Part shown: positions 8,552-63,745 of the stretch, one piece after another
Position numbering within the stretch: position 1 is the first letter of the stretch
Layout: each line of letters begins with the position of its first letter
DNA from: Fidelibacterota bacterium
GTDB lineage: Bacteria > Fidelibacterota > Marinisomatia > SCGC-AAA003-L08 > TS1B11
Direction: 5' to 3'
Length of the DNA stretch: 63,745 bases
Assembly (NCBI GenBank): GCA_020354025.1
Contig: CP070638.1
Location: 1,220,361-1,284,105 of the forward strand
Made by a program: the position numbers and the translations under genes
Notes under the pieces: generated by a model
What the model was told of the DNA's origin: nothing
What the model saw: the letters and a program-made list of their open reading frames with translations, nothing else
Database searches by the model: none

Positions 8552-9880
8552 CTATCGAAACGTTCGTCCTATCCCCAACAGGAACTGGAAAGTCTGAAGG
8601 GTGAACCTGTCCTTCTCTTTTTGAAAGACATCACTGCTGACATAGTCGAAGAAATGCCGAGCCACTCGGAATTCCACGTAAGCAAAGGTCGTTTTTGAAA
8701 CCGGGACTTTTATACCAAATGGGATCTGAAATGCCCACCCCAGGCTTGTGCTATTAAGTTCCTCCCCCTCAGGGGCAAGGCCTTGGACGATCAGGGCATA
8801 GCTGCCGGGGCCAGGCTGTTCGGATTTAACTCTATTCATCAACAGCGACGCGCCAAATCCGACGTAGGGCTGGGCCAACTCGGAGGGCGTGTGGATGTAG
8901 AAATTGCCACCAAAGCCCAGGGAGAACATCCGTTGAAAGTTATCGGGAATATCAAGCGTGTCGAGAACCACTGGATACCAGATCTTTTCAACAGGCATCC
9001 ATATGTATCCCTGAATATCATAAAATACCTTTTGTGCTACAGTGTTATGGCTCACGGCCGAGATTTCCAGGTCTCCTCCGAACCACCGCCTCCAGGCGCC
9101 AATCCTCAGTCCCAAGCCGGGGAATGAGGCTGCGGATTTTACTTCCGCCGCGTTACCCGACCATATTGGCTGCCCGGGAATCGGCCCGGACTTGAATGCA
9201 CTTTCCGCATGGAAGTCCACTACGTTGCCCGCGTTCACGCCCGCATACGCCATCCAGTACCTCACCGACTTGGATGTGCCTGTGGTCCAAGCAGCTATGG
9301 ACTCTTCGAGTGGAGGTAGACCTCGGAGGGCACGGACAACCTGAATAACTGCTCGGTTGGCATCCCGGGCGCTAAAACCCCTCTCGATGGCTGATACCTC
9401 CACCTGGCCTGTTTCCACGTTGACTATACGCACTGATAGAAAGCGGACATCTTGGATCTTGCCCAAAGTCCCTAGAAATACTTTCTTAACGTTTAAGAGT
9501 TTTCCGAGTTGGACGGCGAGTTCCTCCTGGGTGACTCCTAACTGCTGGAAGGTTTGTTCTTCAATAACCTCATCGAGCCGCTGCTTTTCTACCAATTTGT
9601 AAGCTCCGCTCTTCAGCAGCTCGTCCCGGAGCAATTCCGTCATCATTGCAGCTTCCCCTGGTGACACATTCTGGGGAAGGAGATCCAAGACAGCTATGAC
9701 TACTATGCTATCACCTTGGGAAATCCCAGCAAGGAGGAATTGTGGGGTATGAGCAAGGACGAAGATCCAGACCAAGAAAACTATCCCTACTGACCTTCTG
9801 AATACTACTGACCGTTCTTGCTTATGGATTTCTGTCCAATCCTTATCTAATATCCTTCGACTGGCTTTTTCAGATTCCAT
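8552..9880 (-). CDS. CsgG-like domain fused to an outer-membrane-type C-terminal domain
   Basis: 442 residues, ATG preceded by AGGAGG. Residues 29-52 form one hydrophobic export or anchor segment. Residues about 57-190 have the CsgG/LpoB-type fold signature: IAVLDLLPQN, a helix MMTELLRDELLKSGAYKLVE followed by the K-Q-R-L-D-E-V-I-E-E-Q motif, GKLLNVKKVFLGTLGKI and VRIVNVETGQV. CsgG-like domains assemble pores or sense envelope lipoproteins. The rest (about 230-442) is a beta-rich, barrel-like domain ending LLGIGRTFR and is paralogous to the next gene. No lipobox is seen. Fusion of these two parts is uncommon and suggests an envelope export or surface assembly role, which is inference. Confidence 0.65.
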   Translation of the reverse strand: MESEKASRRILDKDWTEIHKQERSVVFRRSVGIVFLVWIFVLAHTPQFLLAGISQGDSIVVIAVLDLLPQNVSPGEAAMMTELLRDELLKSGAYKLVEKQRLDEVIEEQTFQQLGVTQEELAVQLGKLLNVKKVFLGTLGKIQDVRFLSVRIVNVETGQVEVSAIERGFSARDANRAVIQVVRALRGLPPLEESIAAWTTGTSKSVRYWMAYAGVNAGNVVDFHAESAFKSGPIPGQPIWSGNAAEVKSAASFPGLGLRIGAWRRWFGGDLEISAVSHNTVAQKVFYDIQGYIWMPVEKIWYPVVLDTLDIPDNFQRMFSLGFGGNFYIHTPSELAQPYVGFGASLLMNRVKSEQPGPGSYALIVQGLAPEGEELNSTSLGWAFQIPFGIKVPVSKTTFAYVEFRVARHFFDYVSSDVFQKEKDRFTLQTFQFLLGIGRTFR

Positions 9881-12272: not shown

Positions 12273-12352
12273 ATTGTAGAGACTCACCCTTCTGGGTGTA
12301 GCCCAATGGGGGAGCCTTCTGGAAGTAATCTTGGTCCTGGGCTACCCCGCCT

Positions 12353-12375
12353 CCCGGGTCGGGATTGAACCCGGG
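12353..12375 (-). repeat. Palindrome containing a tRNA T-arm-like core
   Basis: CCCGGGT and ACCCGGG form a 7-bp stem around GGGATTGAACCC; on the leftward strand the core reads GGGTTCAATCCC, the T-arm consensus. It lies 26 bp past the stop of the leftward 1021-residue gene and could act as a terminator, but there is no T-run. No complete tRNA surrounds it. Confidence 0.4.
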
Positions 12376-12400
12376 GAGCGAGTATTAGCCGATACCCGGC

Positions 12401-15400
12401 CTATTTCAAATAGACCGCCTTGATGCTCTTGGTGTACTCGGGGGCTACCATACGGATAATGTAGAGGCCCGTCGGTACATCGCGGCCACTGGCTGAGCGG
12501 CCATTCCAAATTACCCGGTGCCGTCCTGGGCTCATGTCAGAGTCAACAAGTCGGATGACCTCACGGCCCAGGAGATCATATACCATAACCACTACGTGAC
12601 CCCGCCTGGGGACATCAAAGCTGAGCATTGTGGACGGATTGAAGGGATTCGGATAGTTCTGTTCCAGTTTGAAGGCCTGGGGGACACCGTCCTTTTCATC
12701 ATCAACGGCAGCTGCAGATCCAAGGTTGAAATCGATATCGGCTGTCTCACCAGGGTCAGTGACCTCTACAGCAGTTGCTCCTGGCGGAATTGTCGGCGAA
12801 AAGAGTTGGTACTCGCCATACAGATTACCTGAAGGTACACCGCTATACCATTGGGGCATAATGTCGGTCCATTCGGCAATAAGCAGTACGTAATAGCCAC
12901 CGGTTCTCAGTCCGGCAACCTGGTATGTTCCAGGCGACGTGGGCGCCCCCGTCATTGGATTCCACCCTACATAGGCTGCCTGGACGAAGTGTCCTGTGGT
13001 ATCATAGACAATGATCAGCAGATCCTCATCGTCGTAGGTGGTTGCCGGTAAACCACTCTCATCGTAGACCGTCCCTGAGATGATCCCCCCGGCCGTCTCC
13101 AGGGTCATTAAGGACACATCAAGGATATCACCTGAGGTGACCGTAATGGTCTGTGATAGAGGATCATCAAACGAGTGCCCGCCACCAGAGTACATTAAGG
13201 CCAGGTCTGTGAACAGACTGATGAAGGCTAGTTTGTAGGTTCCCGCCGGAATACCGGTCAGGCGATATCCGCCCGCGAAGGTGATGCCCCAGTCATCCAG
13301 TACGTACTCTCCAGTCGGTACATCGTATAGGAGGAATAACGGTTCCTCATAATAGTAAGACTCGTAGCCTTCCGGTACTGATACGAATCCCTGGACGGTA
13401 CTGCCGATTTTGCGTACGAAGTTGATGTCTGTAGTCGTGTCCGAAGCAATTACGCCAACGGGTGTAGCCTGGGCAATAGTCACAGCGCCATCGAACCATT
13501 CGTCTATGTATTCGTCGGGTCCCTCAGAATCATAGTATATGCGGACCAGGTATTCGCCGGGCGGTAATCCCGTTATGATATAGTCGCCCCAAAATGAAAT
13601 CTCTGCATCTCCCTGGTACCAGTACGTGGAATCATTGTAGGCTTCGACCCAGCCAGCATTTCCGGCGGGAGTAATACCGTCTTCCTGAAATACCATGCCT
13701 GCGATAGCGCCGGTGGCTTCAAAGAGAATTCCTTCAAAGAATACCAAGGTGTAGGTGTAGTATAGCTCGCCCCCAGCATGGCTCCAATCGTATACCATAA
13801 GGTAATAGTCCCCGGTGTACGGCAGGATATATCCTTCGATTCGGGAATCGAGTCCATCCCAGTCATCATTTTCAGCTAGAACTGTACCTGAGGAATCGAG
13901 CAGCTCAAGATAGGAATCGAGATCACTCCAGTAGTCATAACTTGTAGTGATGTCCGCTGTGACGGTATCGCCGGCCTGGCCGGTAAAGATGAAGTAGTCC
14001 ACGTCACCGGCGGGATTGATGGTGGCGATAACGGTATCGCCATAATCGATCTGGGAAGCGGTAATAGGGCTGTCATTAGGTTCGTAGACGTCAGGGGTTA
14101 ATGGGGTCATTGGGATGGAACCTTCGATAAGCCGTAGGACATACCAGTAATCATCTCCGCCATCCGGATTACCGAAGTCTTTTACCTGCAGGTAATAGTC
14201 ACCGGTATAGGGCAATATATATTGATCAATTCTTGAGTCGAGACCATCGAAATCGTCATTGTCGGTCAGCAGGTAAGTACCTGTTGAATCATACAGGTAA
14301 AGGTAGGAATCCAACCATGAACCGGTTACGTCTGCATCTATATCGGCCGTGATGGTATCGCCTTCCTGGCCGGTGAAAATGAACCAGTCTTCATCGCCAG
14401 CTGGGTTGATGACGGCCTCGATGCTGTCACCATAACTGATGGGAGTGGCCGTTTCGTAATTGTTGTTCTGCTCGTATCCATCGTCGATAGCTGTAAAGAG
14501 GTCCAGAATGAAATCTATGCTGTACGTGGTATCAGCTGTGGCAGATACGGTAAAGATTGTGGCAGCGGCCAGGTTATCAGCCCCACCATAGTACTCCGGA
14601 GTATATCCTCCCACATAAACGTGCAGTTTCTTATCGCCTGGGGAAATGCCACTTATTGTATAACCGCCATCGGTGGAGGTATAACTATAATATGACTGAT
14701 AGTCCCATTCATAATGAGAAGACATATCGTACAGGTGAAAGTATGCCTCGGTATATGCAATGGGTGTAGTGCCATTAGTTTCGAAGAGGCGGCCGGAAAT
14801 AACTTTACCCCTGTCGAGGGTAAAATCAATGCCGGATGTAGTTTGGCCGTCGGACACCGTTACCAGGGTGGCTAGCCGCCAATCGGTCACATTATCATAG
14901 AATTCGTCTATGTATCCGCTGGCTTCGGCCAGGACGTAGTAATCGCCCGGCGGGAGATCCATGATTTGGTAGGAACCGTCCCCTTGAATAGTTTCATCTG
15001 CGACATAGAATCCGTACTCATCGAAGGCTTCTACGTCATAGTAATCAAGTTTTGTTACTCCATCGGAATCGAATACAAAACCGCTGATGCCGCCTGTCCC
15101 CGTCGCCGTGGCAACACCGGTGGTAGTTTTAAAATCTGCCTGGGAGTCCAGATCTGCGGCTTTTATTTTCATCAGCATTTCCCGGTGTCGGGCAATCCTT
15201 TCACCAGGAGTTACTGCTTTAGCCTTGGAGCCAGCGGATTTAGTTGCTCTCTTGGTGGCTAATGTTTTGGGATAGGTACGCAGTACCCTGTCTTTTTGCT
15301 TCGACTCAAAGACCTGCTGAGCAGGCTTATGGGTCAAGCGAGTAATTTTTTCCCTGGCTTGTTCCCGCCAATCGACGTTGTTGCCCGCTAGAATAAAACT

Positions 15401-61819: not shown

Positions 61820-62830
61820 ATGGACCGACGACAAAGTCTCTTCTTTTCTCTCGGAATGCTCGCCCTGCTCTCGTTCGGAGGATGCGGTCTTTACTTGGGA
61901 CAGAGGGGAGATTTTACGGGGATTGACTCGGTTGGTCCTCGACTGATGACATCGATCAACCAGGATGTGCGCGGATATCTCGCCCATTATGATTATATCA
62001 GTATCGCCTTAGTATATAACGGGGAAATCGTACTGACAAAGAGCTATGGGCATGATCGGATTGTCAGAAACGATGTGTACGCGTCCGTCTCCAAGCCGGT
62101 TACTTCCACCATCGTAGTGCGGCTCCGGGAAGACGGTCAGATCAAAAGCCTGGACGATCCGATTGGCAAATATTCCCGGAAGTATCGTGATGTCCAACCT
62201 CAGGAATTCAGTGATCCCCCTATTACCTTCCGGCACCTCCTGACCCATACCGGCGGAGTGCCCCATCAGTCCGCACTCTGGGAGGATGATACCCTCAACA
62301 TGGATTTTCGAGCGGGCACCGGGGCCCGGTACTCGACGAAAGGCTATGGCATCCTGGGCGACGTGATGGAGGATATCACCGGCAAGTCCTATGAGGAGCT
62401 AGTCCAGGAGTATATTGGTGGACCGGTTGGGGCCTCGTCCTTCACTGCGTTGCCGTTTTTCGAGGCGCCCGCAGGCAACGTTTATTCCACAATTGCCGAC
62501 ATGGCTCGGTTCGCCATCGGCGTAATGAGCGGGCAGTATTATGGGACAGATGTTCTGTTCAACGAAGTCCTGATACGCTATGCTGATGAGCAGTATGGTG
62601 TCATGGGGCTCGGCTGGTATGTGCTGAATCTGGATGATCCGGAGAACCTGGCAGGATATCATGCCGGTTCCAACGGCCGCCCCCGGGCGTTCCTCGCGAT
62701 CAAGCCCCGCCGGCAGAACGCGGTATGCATCACCGGCCTTAACACGTCTTCCGATGGCGCGCATGATTTTGGCAACCTGGCGATCGACCTGATGAAGACG
62801 CTGGAAACGGGTATGCCGGAATATGAATGA
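61820..62830 (+). CDS. Serine beta-lactamase-family hydrolase lipoprotein
   Basis: 336 residues from the ATG at 61820 (a GTG at 61814 is also possible). Lipoprotein-like leader LALLSFGGC (Cys22). The class C-type active site has YASVSKPVTS (Ser89, Lys92), the Tyr motif GARYSTKGYGILG and a late HAGSNGRPR in place of the KTG box. Many such proteins are esterases or peptidases rather than true beta-lactamases. Its last 8 bp overlap tadA. A frameshifted relative lies at 3302-3536. Confidence 0.82.
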   Translation: MDRRQSLFFSLGMLALLSFGGCGLYLGQRGDFTGIDSVGPRLMTSINQDVRGYLAHYDYISIALVYNGEIVLTKSYGHDRIVRNDVYASVSKPVTSTIVVRLREDGQIKSLDDPIGKYSRKYRDVQPQEFSDPPITFRHLLTHTGGVPHQSALWEDDTLNMDFRAGTGARYSTKGYGILGDVMEDITGKSYEELVQEYIGGPVGASSFTALPFFEAPAGNVYSTIADMARFAIGVMSGQYYGTDVLFNEVLIRYADEQYGVMGLGWYVLNLDDPENLAGYHAGSNGRPRAFLAIKPRRQNAVCITGLNTSSDGAHDFGNLAIDLMKTLETGMPEYE

Positions 62831-63290
62831 TCCACCGCATGACCACTTCCTCCGGCAGGCGCTGAAGGAGGCTGAACGGGCCTTTGAGGCCGGGGAGGTG
62901 CCGGTCGGGGCCGTAGTGGTCCGCGAGGGCTTGGTCATCGGGCGGGGGCACAACCGCCGGGAAGCCCTGGCCGATCCCACTGCCCACGCCGAACTGCTGG
63001 CCATCACCGCCGCCGCCAACTCGCTCGGCAACTGGCGACTGGAGGATTGTACCCTGTACGTCACCAAGGAACCGTGCCCCATGTGCGCCGGGGCTATCGT
63101 CAATAGCCGGCTCGAACGCCTGGTCTTCGGCGCCTGGGACGAGCAGGCCGGCTGCTGCGGCTCCCTCTATCAGCTCTGCCGCGATCCGCGCCTCAGCCAC
63201 CAGGTGGTGGTTACCGGCGGCGTGCTGGAACAGGAATGCCAAGCCCTGCTGCGGGAGTTCTTCCGCCGGAAACGGCAGGGATCACCGTAG
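62823..63290 (+). CDS. tadA: tRNA-specific adenosine deaminase
   Basis: 155 residues. Deaminates A34 to inosine in tRNA-Arg(ACG), which is encoded at 59421. Zinc and catalytic residues: His55 and Glu57 in TAHAELLA and Cys85 and Cys88 in EPCPMCAGAI. VPVGAVVV and RREALADP are also typical. Complete length; overlaps the previous gene by 8 bp. Confidence 0.93.
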   Translation: MNDPPHDHFLRQALKEAERAFEAGEVPVGAVVVREGLVIGRGHNRREALADPTAHAELLAITAAANSLGNWRLEDCTLYVTKEPCPMCAGAIVNSRLERLVFGAWDEQAGCCGSLYQLCRDPRLSHQVVVTGGVLEQECQALLREFFRRKRQGSP

Positions 63291-63377: not shown

Positions 63378-63505
63378 GGAGGAGTGGCAGAGTGGTTGAA
63401 TGCGGCGGTCTCGAAAACCGTTTCCCGATGACCTCGGGACGGGGGTTCGCCCCCGACCTTTAGCGTCGGGGATTAGTCCCGCCAGAGGCGGGAAATCCCT
63501 CCCTT
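63378..63505 (+). repeat. tRNA-Ser(CGA)-like element with T-arm replaced by hairpins, copy 1
   Basis: The first two thirds are a proper tRNA-Ser: GGAGGAG, D-arm, anticodon stem GCGGT/ACCGT with loop CTCGAAA (anticodon CGA), and a variable arm TCCCGA/TCGGGA. After GGGGGTTCG the expected T-loop and 3' acceptor are missing. Instead there are two hairpins: CCCCGAC/GTCGGGG with loop CTTTAGC, and TCCCGCC/GGCGGGA with loop AGA, the latter extended by GGGATT/AATCCC. Ending is CCTCCCTT. It is identical to 63618-63745. Whether a functional tRNA can be made is doubtful. Confidence 0.7.
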
Positions 63506-63617
63506 GACCCGGATCAGCTGGGCTCCAAGAGGGGCTAACGTTGTTACTTTCGCCTTGGTCATATGCGTAATTTTTCTTCTGAGCCGGTGATAGGAAGAAA
63601 GATCACCTGGCCTTAAG

Positions 63618-63745
63618 GGAGGAGTGGCAGAGTGGTTGAATGCGGCGGTCTCGAAAACCGTTTCCCGATGACCTCGGGACGGGGGTTCGCCCCCGACCTT
63701 TAGCGTCGGGGATTAGTCCCGCCAGAGGCGGGAAATCCCTCCCTT
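63618..63745 (+). repeat. tRNA-Ser(CGA)-like element, copy 2, reaching the window edge
   Basis: Exact copy of 63378-63505 over all 128 bp, offset by 240 bp. The window ends at the last base of the shared sequence, so the real 3' end is not visible. A contig edge falling in a repeat would explain this. Confidence 0.75.

Follow-up and report, generated by a model that had tools for sequence, protein, structure and literature searches.

Results

Two identical units at the end of the window

The window, i.e. the whole stretch of 63,745 nucleotides that was analysed, closes with two identical 128-bp units at 63378-63505 and 63618-63745. Both lie inside its last 368 bases, with a start-to-start distance of 240 bp, and each consists of 72 nt of tRNA-Ser(CGA), a 44 nt two-hairpin insert and AATCCCTCCCTT. 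The region contains the following features:

62823-63290, forward strand: tadA-like gene (tRNA adenosine deaminase), the upstream neighbour, recognised by HAE and PCPMC motifs in the ORF and by orthologues of 77-80% identity in the related genomes G001, G002 and G005
63378-63449, forward strand: copy 1, tRNA-Ser(CGA) positions 1-57 (acceptor 5′ strand, D-arm, anticodon arm, variable arm, T-stem 5′ strand, TTCG), from sequence
63450-63493, forward strand: copy 1, double-hairpin insert of 44 nt in the T-loop, from folding, with kin found by the models R1 and R2 (see below)
63451-63471, forward strand: copy 1, hairpin 1, CCCCGAC/GTCGGGG, from folding
63472-63476, forward strand: copy 1, linker ATTAG between the hairpins, from sequence
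63477-63493, forward strand: copy 1, hairpin 2, TCCCGCC/GGCGGGA, from folding
63494-63505, forward strand: copy 1, remaining T-loop and T-stem, AATCCCTCCCTT; the acceptor 3′ strand is not recognisable further 3′
63506-63617, forward strand: inter-copy spacer of 112 nt, from sequence
63618-63689, forward strand: copy 2, tRNA-Ser(CGA) positions 1-57, from sequence
63690-63733, forward strand: copy 2, insert of 44 nt, the same as in copy 1, from sequence
63734-63745, forward strand: copy 2, AATCCCTCCCTT, which terminates at a 100-N scaffold gap of the assembly

The initial annotation had described two identical 128-bp units that begin like a class II tRNA, and this description is borne out. Both units are present and identical, and their 72-nt 5′ part carries the anticodon CGA and a long variable arm; in copy 1 the tRNA part matches positions 7-71 of the G001 tRNA-Ser(CGA) with 95% identity. 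Folded as single-stranded DNA, the insert forms exactly the two hairpins that had been proposed, with an energy of -15.5 kcal/mol and a z-score of -4.9 (0 of 200 shuffles were as good). A further possible hairpin involves the start of the spacer and the end of copy 1, at about 63500-63533. The TTTAG loop of hairpin 1 raised the idea of IS200/IS605 ends, which was dropped as the loop is absent in other copies. The CTCCTCC acceptor strand had been reported missing after copy 1, and indeed only four of the seven acceptor positions can pair at the expected place; the sequence of copy 2 ends before this point.

The intact gene in relatives

In G001, G002 and G005, an intact tRNA-Ser(CGA) is located directly behind tadA, as copy 1 is in the window. 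These orthologues read GGTTCGAATCCC where the window has TTCG-insert-AATCCC. Since they show the site uninterrupted, we interpret the window sequence as the same gene, into which an insert apparently went cleanly between positions 57 and 58 of the T-loop (TTCG|AATCCC). The earlier view that the T-arm and acceptor end are replaced holds for the acceptor 3′ strand of copy 1, which is not recognisable, but the T-arm is better described as interrupted in its loop. In G002 the intact tRNA-Ser(CGA) is followed by a GIY-YIG ORF and then by GGCGGGGGTTCG-hairpins-AATCCCTCCCTCTCCGC. In G001, which belongs to the same genus as the window, 157 nt separate tRNA-Ser(CGA) from the following gene, and they contain no hairpin-and-tail unit. 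To see which copy is ancestral, the upstream flanks of copies 1 and 2 were compared with the relatives, which gave at most one borderline score per copy.

The units score below the other tRNA genes

ARAGORN called neither unit as a tRNA. With the Rfam tRNA model both units scored 31.1 bits, compared with 46-76 bits for the other 37 tRNAs of the genome above the cut-off. Both units thus lack two marks of a functional tRNA, a typical covariance score and an ARAGORN call. When the insert was deleted in silico, ARAGORN called a tRNA-Ser(CGA).

A search for an intact tRNA-Ser(CGA), as the initial annotation had recommended, found none elsewhere in the assembled genome. This absence is weak evidence and does not decide the matter, because the assembled set of 38 tRNAs also lacks Asp, Ile and Tyr and because the assembly breaks at this locus. 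An intact tRNA-Ser(CGA) could lie in unassembled sequence. The genome (G000) is rated 95% complete though tRNA genes for Asp, Ile and Tyr are missing, which suggests that several tRNA loci are in gaps. TCG accounts for 14% of serine codons in the long ORFs of the window. A tRNA-Ser(TGA) is present in the genome, and by established decoding rules it can read UCG by wobble. A further ARAGORN call of tRNA-Ser(TGA), at 12349-12444 on the reverse strand of the window, lies near the tmRNA, has no Rfam support and is probably false.

The insert belongs to a family found mostly in tRNA T-loops

A DNA search detected pieces of the insert beside tRNA genes in the genome of the window and in relatives. 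The consensus of the family is TTCG-[CCCCGCC..GGCGGG]-ATTAG-[TCCCGCC..GGCGGGA]-A[AG]TCC; its members are short and GC-rich, have two hairpins side by side and occur in several dispersed copies. Alignment of seven inserts revealed a common core, in which TT.GTCCCGC and GCGGGAA are nearly invariant. Two of the seven inserts come from tRNA-Met remnants in DSAS01000015.1, a separate Neomarinimicrobiota MAG that a pattern scan picked out. Three named contigs carry the pattern; two are from Neomarinimicrobiota and the third has no T-loop context. A pattern match in an Acidimicrobium MAG (L073) was set aside, since it lacks a T-loop flank and the 8 kb around it contain no tRNA.

Covariance model R1 includes the T-loop flanks and was searched in 60 genomes, the window's own included. 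It matched in 8 of the 60, all of the window's own family, with 12 matches in the window's genome; 7 of the 10 other genomes of the genus and family were matched and 0 of the 49 others of the order and class. Since the flanks bias R1 toward T-loops, model R2 was built from the insert alone and run on five genomes at E < 1e-6, with each of the two window copies entered as a place of its own. Among its best 15 places, 11 have tRNA sequence at the flank by BLAST, two more lie between TTCG and A[AG]TCC, and two show neither. Matches weaker than this threshold are mostly plain GC-rich palindromes away from tRNAs, together with a few tRNA-Leu remnants. These searches show that the strong members form a real family, although its boundary with palindromes in general is soft. 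Within this bacterial family, most of the strong members occupy the T-loop of a tRNA-derived sequence, and these sequences are chiefly truncated 3′ remnants.

In other hosts that retain both sides of the tRNA, the break falls at the same dinucleotide. Two inserts in tRNA-Met lie at 57|58 of 74 and those at two tRNA-Leu loci at 68|69 of 85, while a tRNA-Arg remnant has a single-hairpin insert at 58|59 of 75; no tRNA base is lost in any of them. A tRNA-Ser copy in G003 (L110, G003:C368, about 8630-8803) carries exact hairpin insertions in the D-loop, the anticodon loop and the T-loop together. Most hosts are 3′ remnants, often from the anticodon arm on, located downstream of the intact parent tRNA. 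A cognate remnant was detected within 900 nt downstream in 23 of 87 tRNAs examined, a figure that is no genome-wide rate, the loci having been picked partly because they matched. In the genome of the window, the 17-nt 3′ tail is repeated downstream of 5 of the 38 tRNAs and upstream of none; as a control, 2 of 1352 non-cognate comparisons in this genome match. Three tandem tRNA-Leu(GAG) tails, at a spacing of 56 nt and with hairpins between them, were also seen at positions 1-140 of L140 (G008:C75).

The closest parallel to the window gene lies in the same genome at about 2290.8 kb (L174, G000:C1:2290540-2291176), where the T-loop of a near full-length tRNA-Leu(TAA) copy is split by three hairpins. 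Its downstream flank resembles that of the intact gene, and an intact tRNA-Leu(TAA) is present elsewhere in the genome. This example favours reading the window units as pseudogenes. Two observations count against it: the retained 5′ tRNA part shows no damage and the copies do not differ from each other, which does not suggest long decay, and at the other insert loci an intact tRNA accompanies the remnant, while none was found for Ser(CGA) in the assembled genome. Overall, both copies are most likely silent.

GIY-YIG genes lie beside tRNA genes in relatives

Small GIY-YIG genes in relatives from the genus, family and order lie closely behind a tRNA or tmRNA, or in tandem behind such a gene, in 10 of 11 cases, and tRNA remnant sequence mostly trails them. 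The tmRNA of G013 was recognised by reading the sequence. In that genome (G013:C60; L078, L086), tandem GIY-YIG genes follow directly behind the tmRNA 3′ end, and the tmRNA tail is repeated after them, a counterpart at the tmRNA of what is seen at tRNAs. In a phylum-wide sample of 30 strong GIY-YIG matches, 10 have a tRNA or tmRNA on their own strand no more than 200 nt upstream. A GIY-YIG ORF adjoins the putative target tRNA in G002, G003, G005 and G006. The search of the window's own genome revealed only a GIY-YIG gene of uvrC length and no small one, so no resident enzyme is visible there.

SegB, a GIY-YIG enzyme of T-even phages, is associated with tRNA genes, cleaves inside them and prefers the motif RAWTSGAAC (PMC13096335). 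In a comparison made here and not taken from that source, the reverse complement of this motif, GTTCSAWTY, fits the T-loop GTTCGAATC. The motif occurs in 17 of the 38 tRNAs of the window's genome, a limited share that counts against such a link, and is absent from the interrupted copy. By analogy with SegB, and from this agreement of motifs, the GIY-YIG enzymes of the relatives may possibly cleave T-loops and home there.

The assembly breaks at the locus

The window stops exactly at a 100-N scaffold gap, and copy 2 is cut by the contig end. In G001 and G002, tRNA-Ser(CGA) is followed by a gene whose best match, among the stretches of the window's genome that were compared, lies at L102:688-1536 (72% and 69% identity), directly behind another 100-N gap near base 3,318,700. 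A more distant paralogue of this gene is on the contig placed after the window. Because the best match lies beyond the other gap, the scaffolds are probably joined in the wrong order here, with the true continuation of the locus probably at the L102 gene. The contig after the other gap opens with a diverged insert copy (85% over 41 nt) and also carries tails TCCTCCTCCGC, complementary to the GGAGGAG acceptor strand of the window units. We infer that a cluster of such repeats broke the assembly. The sequence beyond copy 2 may be anything, an intact tRNA-Ser(CGA) included.

Discussion

Our preferred reading, to which we assign a probability of about 0.7, is that the two units are copies of tRNA-Ser(CGA) interrupted at T-loop position 57|58 by a 44-bp palindromic double-hairpin element, that they are most likely not working tRNAs, and that the mechanism may be linked to GIY-YIG endonucleases. 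Of the three options offered by the initial annotation, palindromic insertion followed by duplication fits best with the intact orthologues and with related inserts at the same dinucleotide, whereas a spliced pre-tRNA and a regulatory RNA found no support.

A different origin would be a deletion, in which CGGGGGTTCG of the intact tRNA recombined with an identical string in a hairpin-and-tail unit farther downstream, and the 3′ end of the tRNA was lost together with the intervening DNA. G002 has just such a precursor layout, and the tail of copy 1 is not complementary to its own acceptor strand. The Leu, Met and Arg remnants, with their exact 57|58 insertions and matching 3′ tail, fit insertion instead, and G001, of the same genus, lacks such a unit in the 157 nt downstream of its tRNA-Ser(CGA). 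Deletion is somewhat unlikely, though a serious contender. Both routes fit this gene, and we lean towards direct insertion by about two to one. It is less probable still, but well worth keeping in mind, that the second copy, and hence the duplication, is an assembly artefact of the contig end. Copy 2 runs exactly into the 100-N gap and its likely true right neighbour is elsewhere, behind another such gap, so the artefact raised as a concern in the initial annotation is a justified worry for copy 2. However, a contig that stops where copy 1 meets the spacer is, as we reason, what a genuine repeat with two continuations would produce in a de Bruijn graph, and the diverged insert and TCCTCCTCCGC tails past the other gap speak for repeats of this kind being really clustered here.

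Functional RNAs are far less probable than either of these, because copy 1 has no matching acceptor strand, the insert is dispersed and most hosts are truncated remnants. A tRNA-like regulatory or structured RNA is very improbable. The insertions do respect stems at several loci, and the G003 tRNA-Ser copy has precise hairpins in three loops, but no such RNA is kept as a unit: the loci differ in their host tRNA, in how much of it remains and in the sequence of the hairpins. A simple search for promoter- or terminator-like signals detected none, which is weak evidence. The least probable reading is a functional pre-tRNA from which the hairpins are excised, the ends then being ligated or the tRNA staying nicked, much like the intervening sequences of bacterial 23S rRNA. 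The insert spares all tRNA bases, ARAGORN recovers tRNA-Ser(CGA) upon its removal, the assembly has no intact Ser(CGA) and TCG codons are in use (14% of serine codons). Against this, the acceptor 3′ strand of copy 1 is unpaired (4/7), related inserts sit mainly in remnants incapable of being tRNAs, tRNA-Ser(TGA) can read UCG by wobble, and the assembled tRNA set is incomplete.

Under the preferred reading of an interrupted tRNA gene, a homing-type GIY-YIG endonuclease, encoded between the intact tRNA and the remnant in several relatives, would recognise the tRNA T-loop. The break and its repair would yield duplicated tRNA pieces, and the hairpin element would enter, or be kept at, the cut site. 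An occupied cut site would no longer contain the recognition sequence, and the remnant would escape further cutting. More broadly, and quite tentatively, such arrays may represent a selfish bacterial system acting on tRNA genes. Its GIY-YIG enzymes would cleave T-loops and thereby duplicate tRNA sequence, while position 57|58 would be filled by double-hairpin palindromes. Across Neomarinimicrobiota this would leave arrays in which an intact tRNA, an endonuclease gene and remnants sealed by hairpins occur together, and at the present locus the system would have taken tRNA-Ser(CGA) itself.

Palindromic repeats and tRNA-proximal GIY-YIG genes are each already known. The two would be connected by a family of bacterial palindromes that occupies a single tRNA position and is accompanied by tRNA remnants and by a candidate endonuclease, the phage relative of which has a T-loop-like motif; the question of how such repeats arise would then become open to testing. 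In practical terms, tRNA counts in such genomes may include or miss interrupted copies, and arrays of interrupted copies break assemblies. Our literature search, of partial coverage, found no description of palindromes fixed in bacterial tRNA T-loops or of tRNA-linked bacterial GIY-YIG elements.

Comparison with known systems

The double-hairpin elements of mitochondria (DHEs; Paquin, Laforest and Lang 2000) are short, GC-rich and dispersed, are regarded as potentially mobile and are reported from intergenic regions and rRNA genes (PMC10085805), whereas the window insert is bacterial and occupies one fixed tRNA T-loop dinucleotide. The likeness, drawn by description, lies in short GC-rich dispersed elements of two hairpins that occur between genes and inside RNA genes. 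To our knowledge, no endonuclease is associated with DHEs.

Like the inserts, REP sequences are short extragenic palindromes of bacteria and are often paired; among REP, BIME and REPIN sequences, most have a GTAG or CGTC tag and an association with RAYT transposases (PMC3733652). The present inserts differ in that they have no GTAG or CGTC end tag, their ends being CCC and GGGA in seven aligned copies, and in that they sit in tRNA-derived T-loops. Rickettsia palindromic elements are inserted inside genes, mainly in-frame in protein genes of Rickettsia; by description, they and the window insert are both palindromes within genes.

Free-standing homing endonucleases of the GIY-YIG type that lie near phage tRNA genes, SegB among them, promote tandem amplification (PMC13096335). 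The arrangement in the relatives is similar in that a small GIY-YIG gene adjoins tRNA genes and the SegB cleavage motif reads as a T-loop. SegB differs in being a phage enzyme for which no double-hairpin element is described, and the bacterial enzymes are known here from their genes. Where integrative elements have their attachment sites at tRNA 3′ ends, the inserted material is flanked by a second tRNA 3′ end, from the T-loop onward, and the upstream tRNA stays intact. The arrangement of the present units is alike, but at tens to a few hundred bp they are of a different size.
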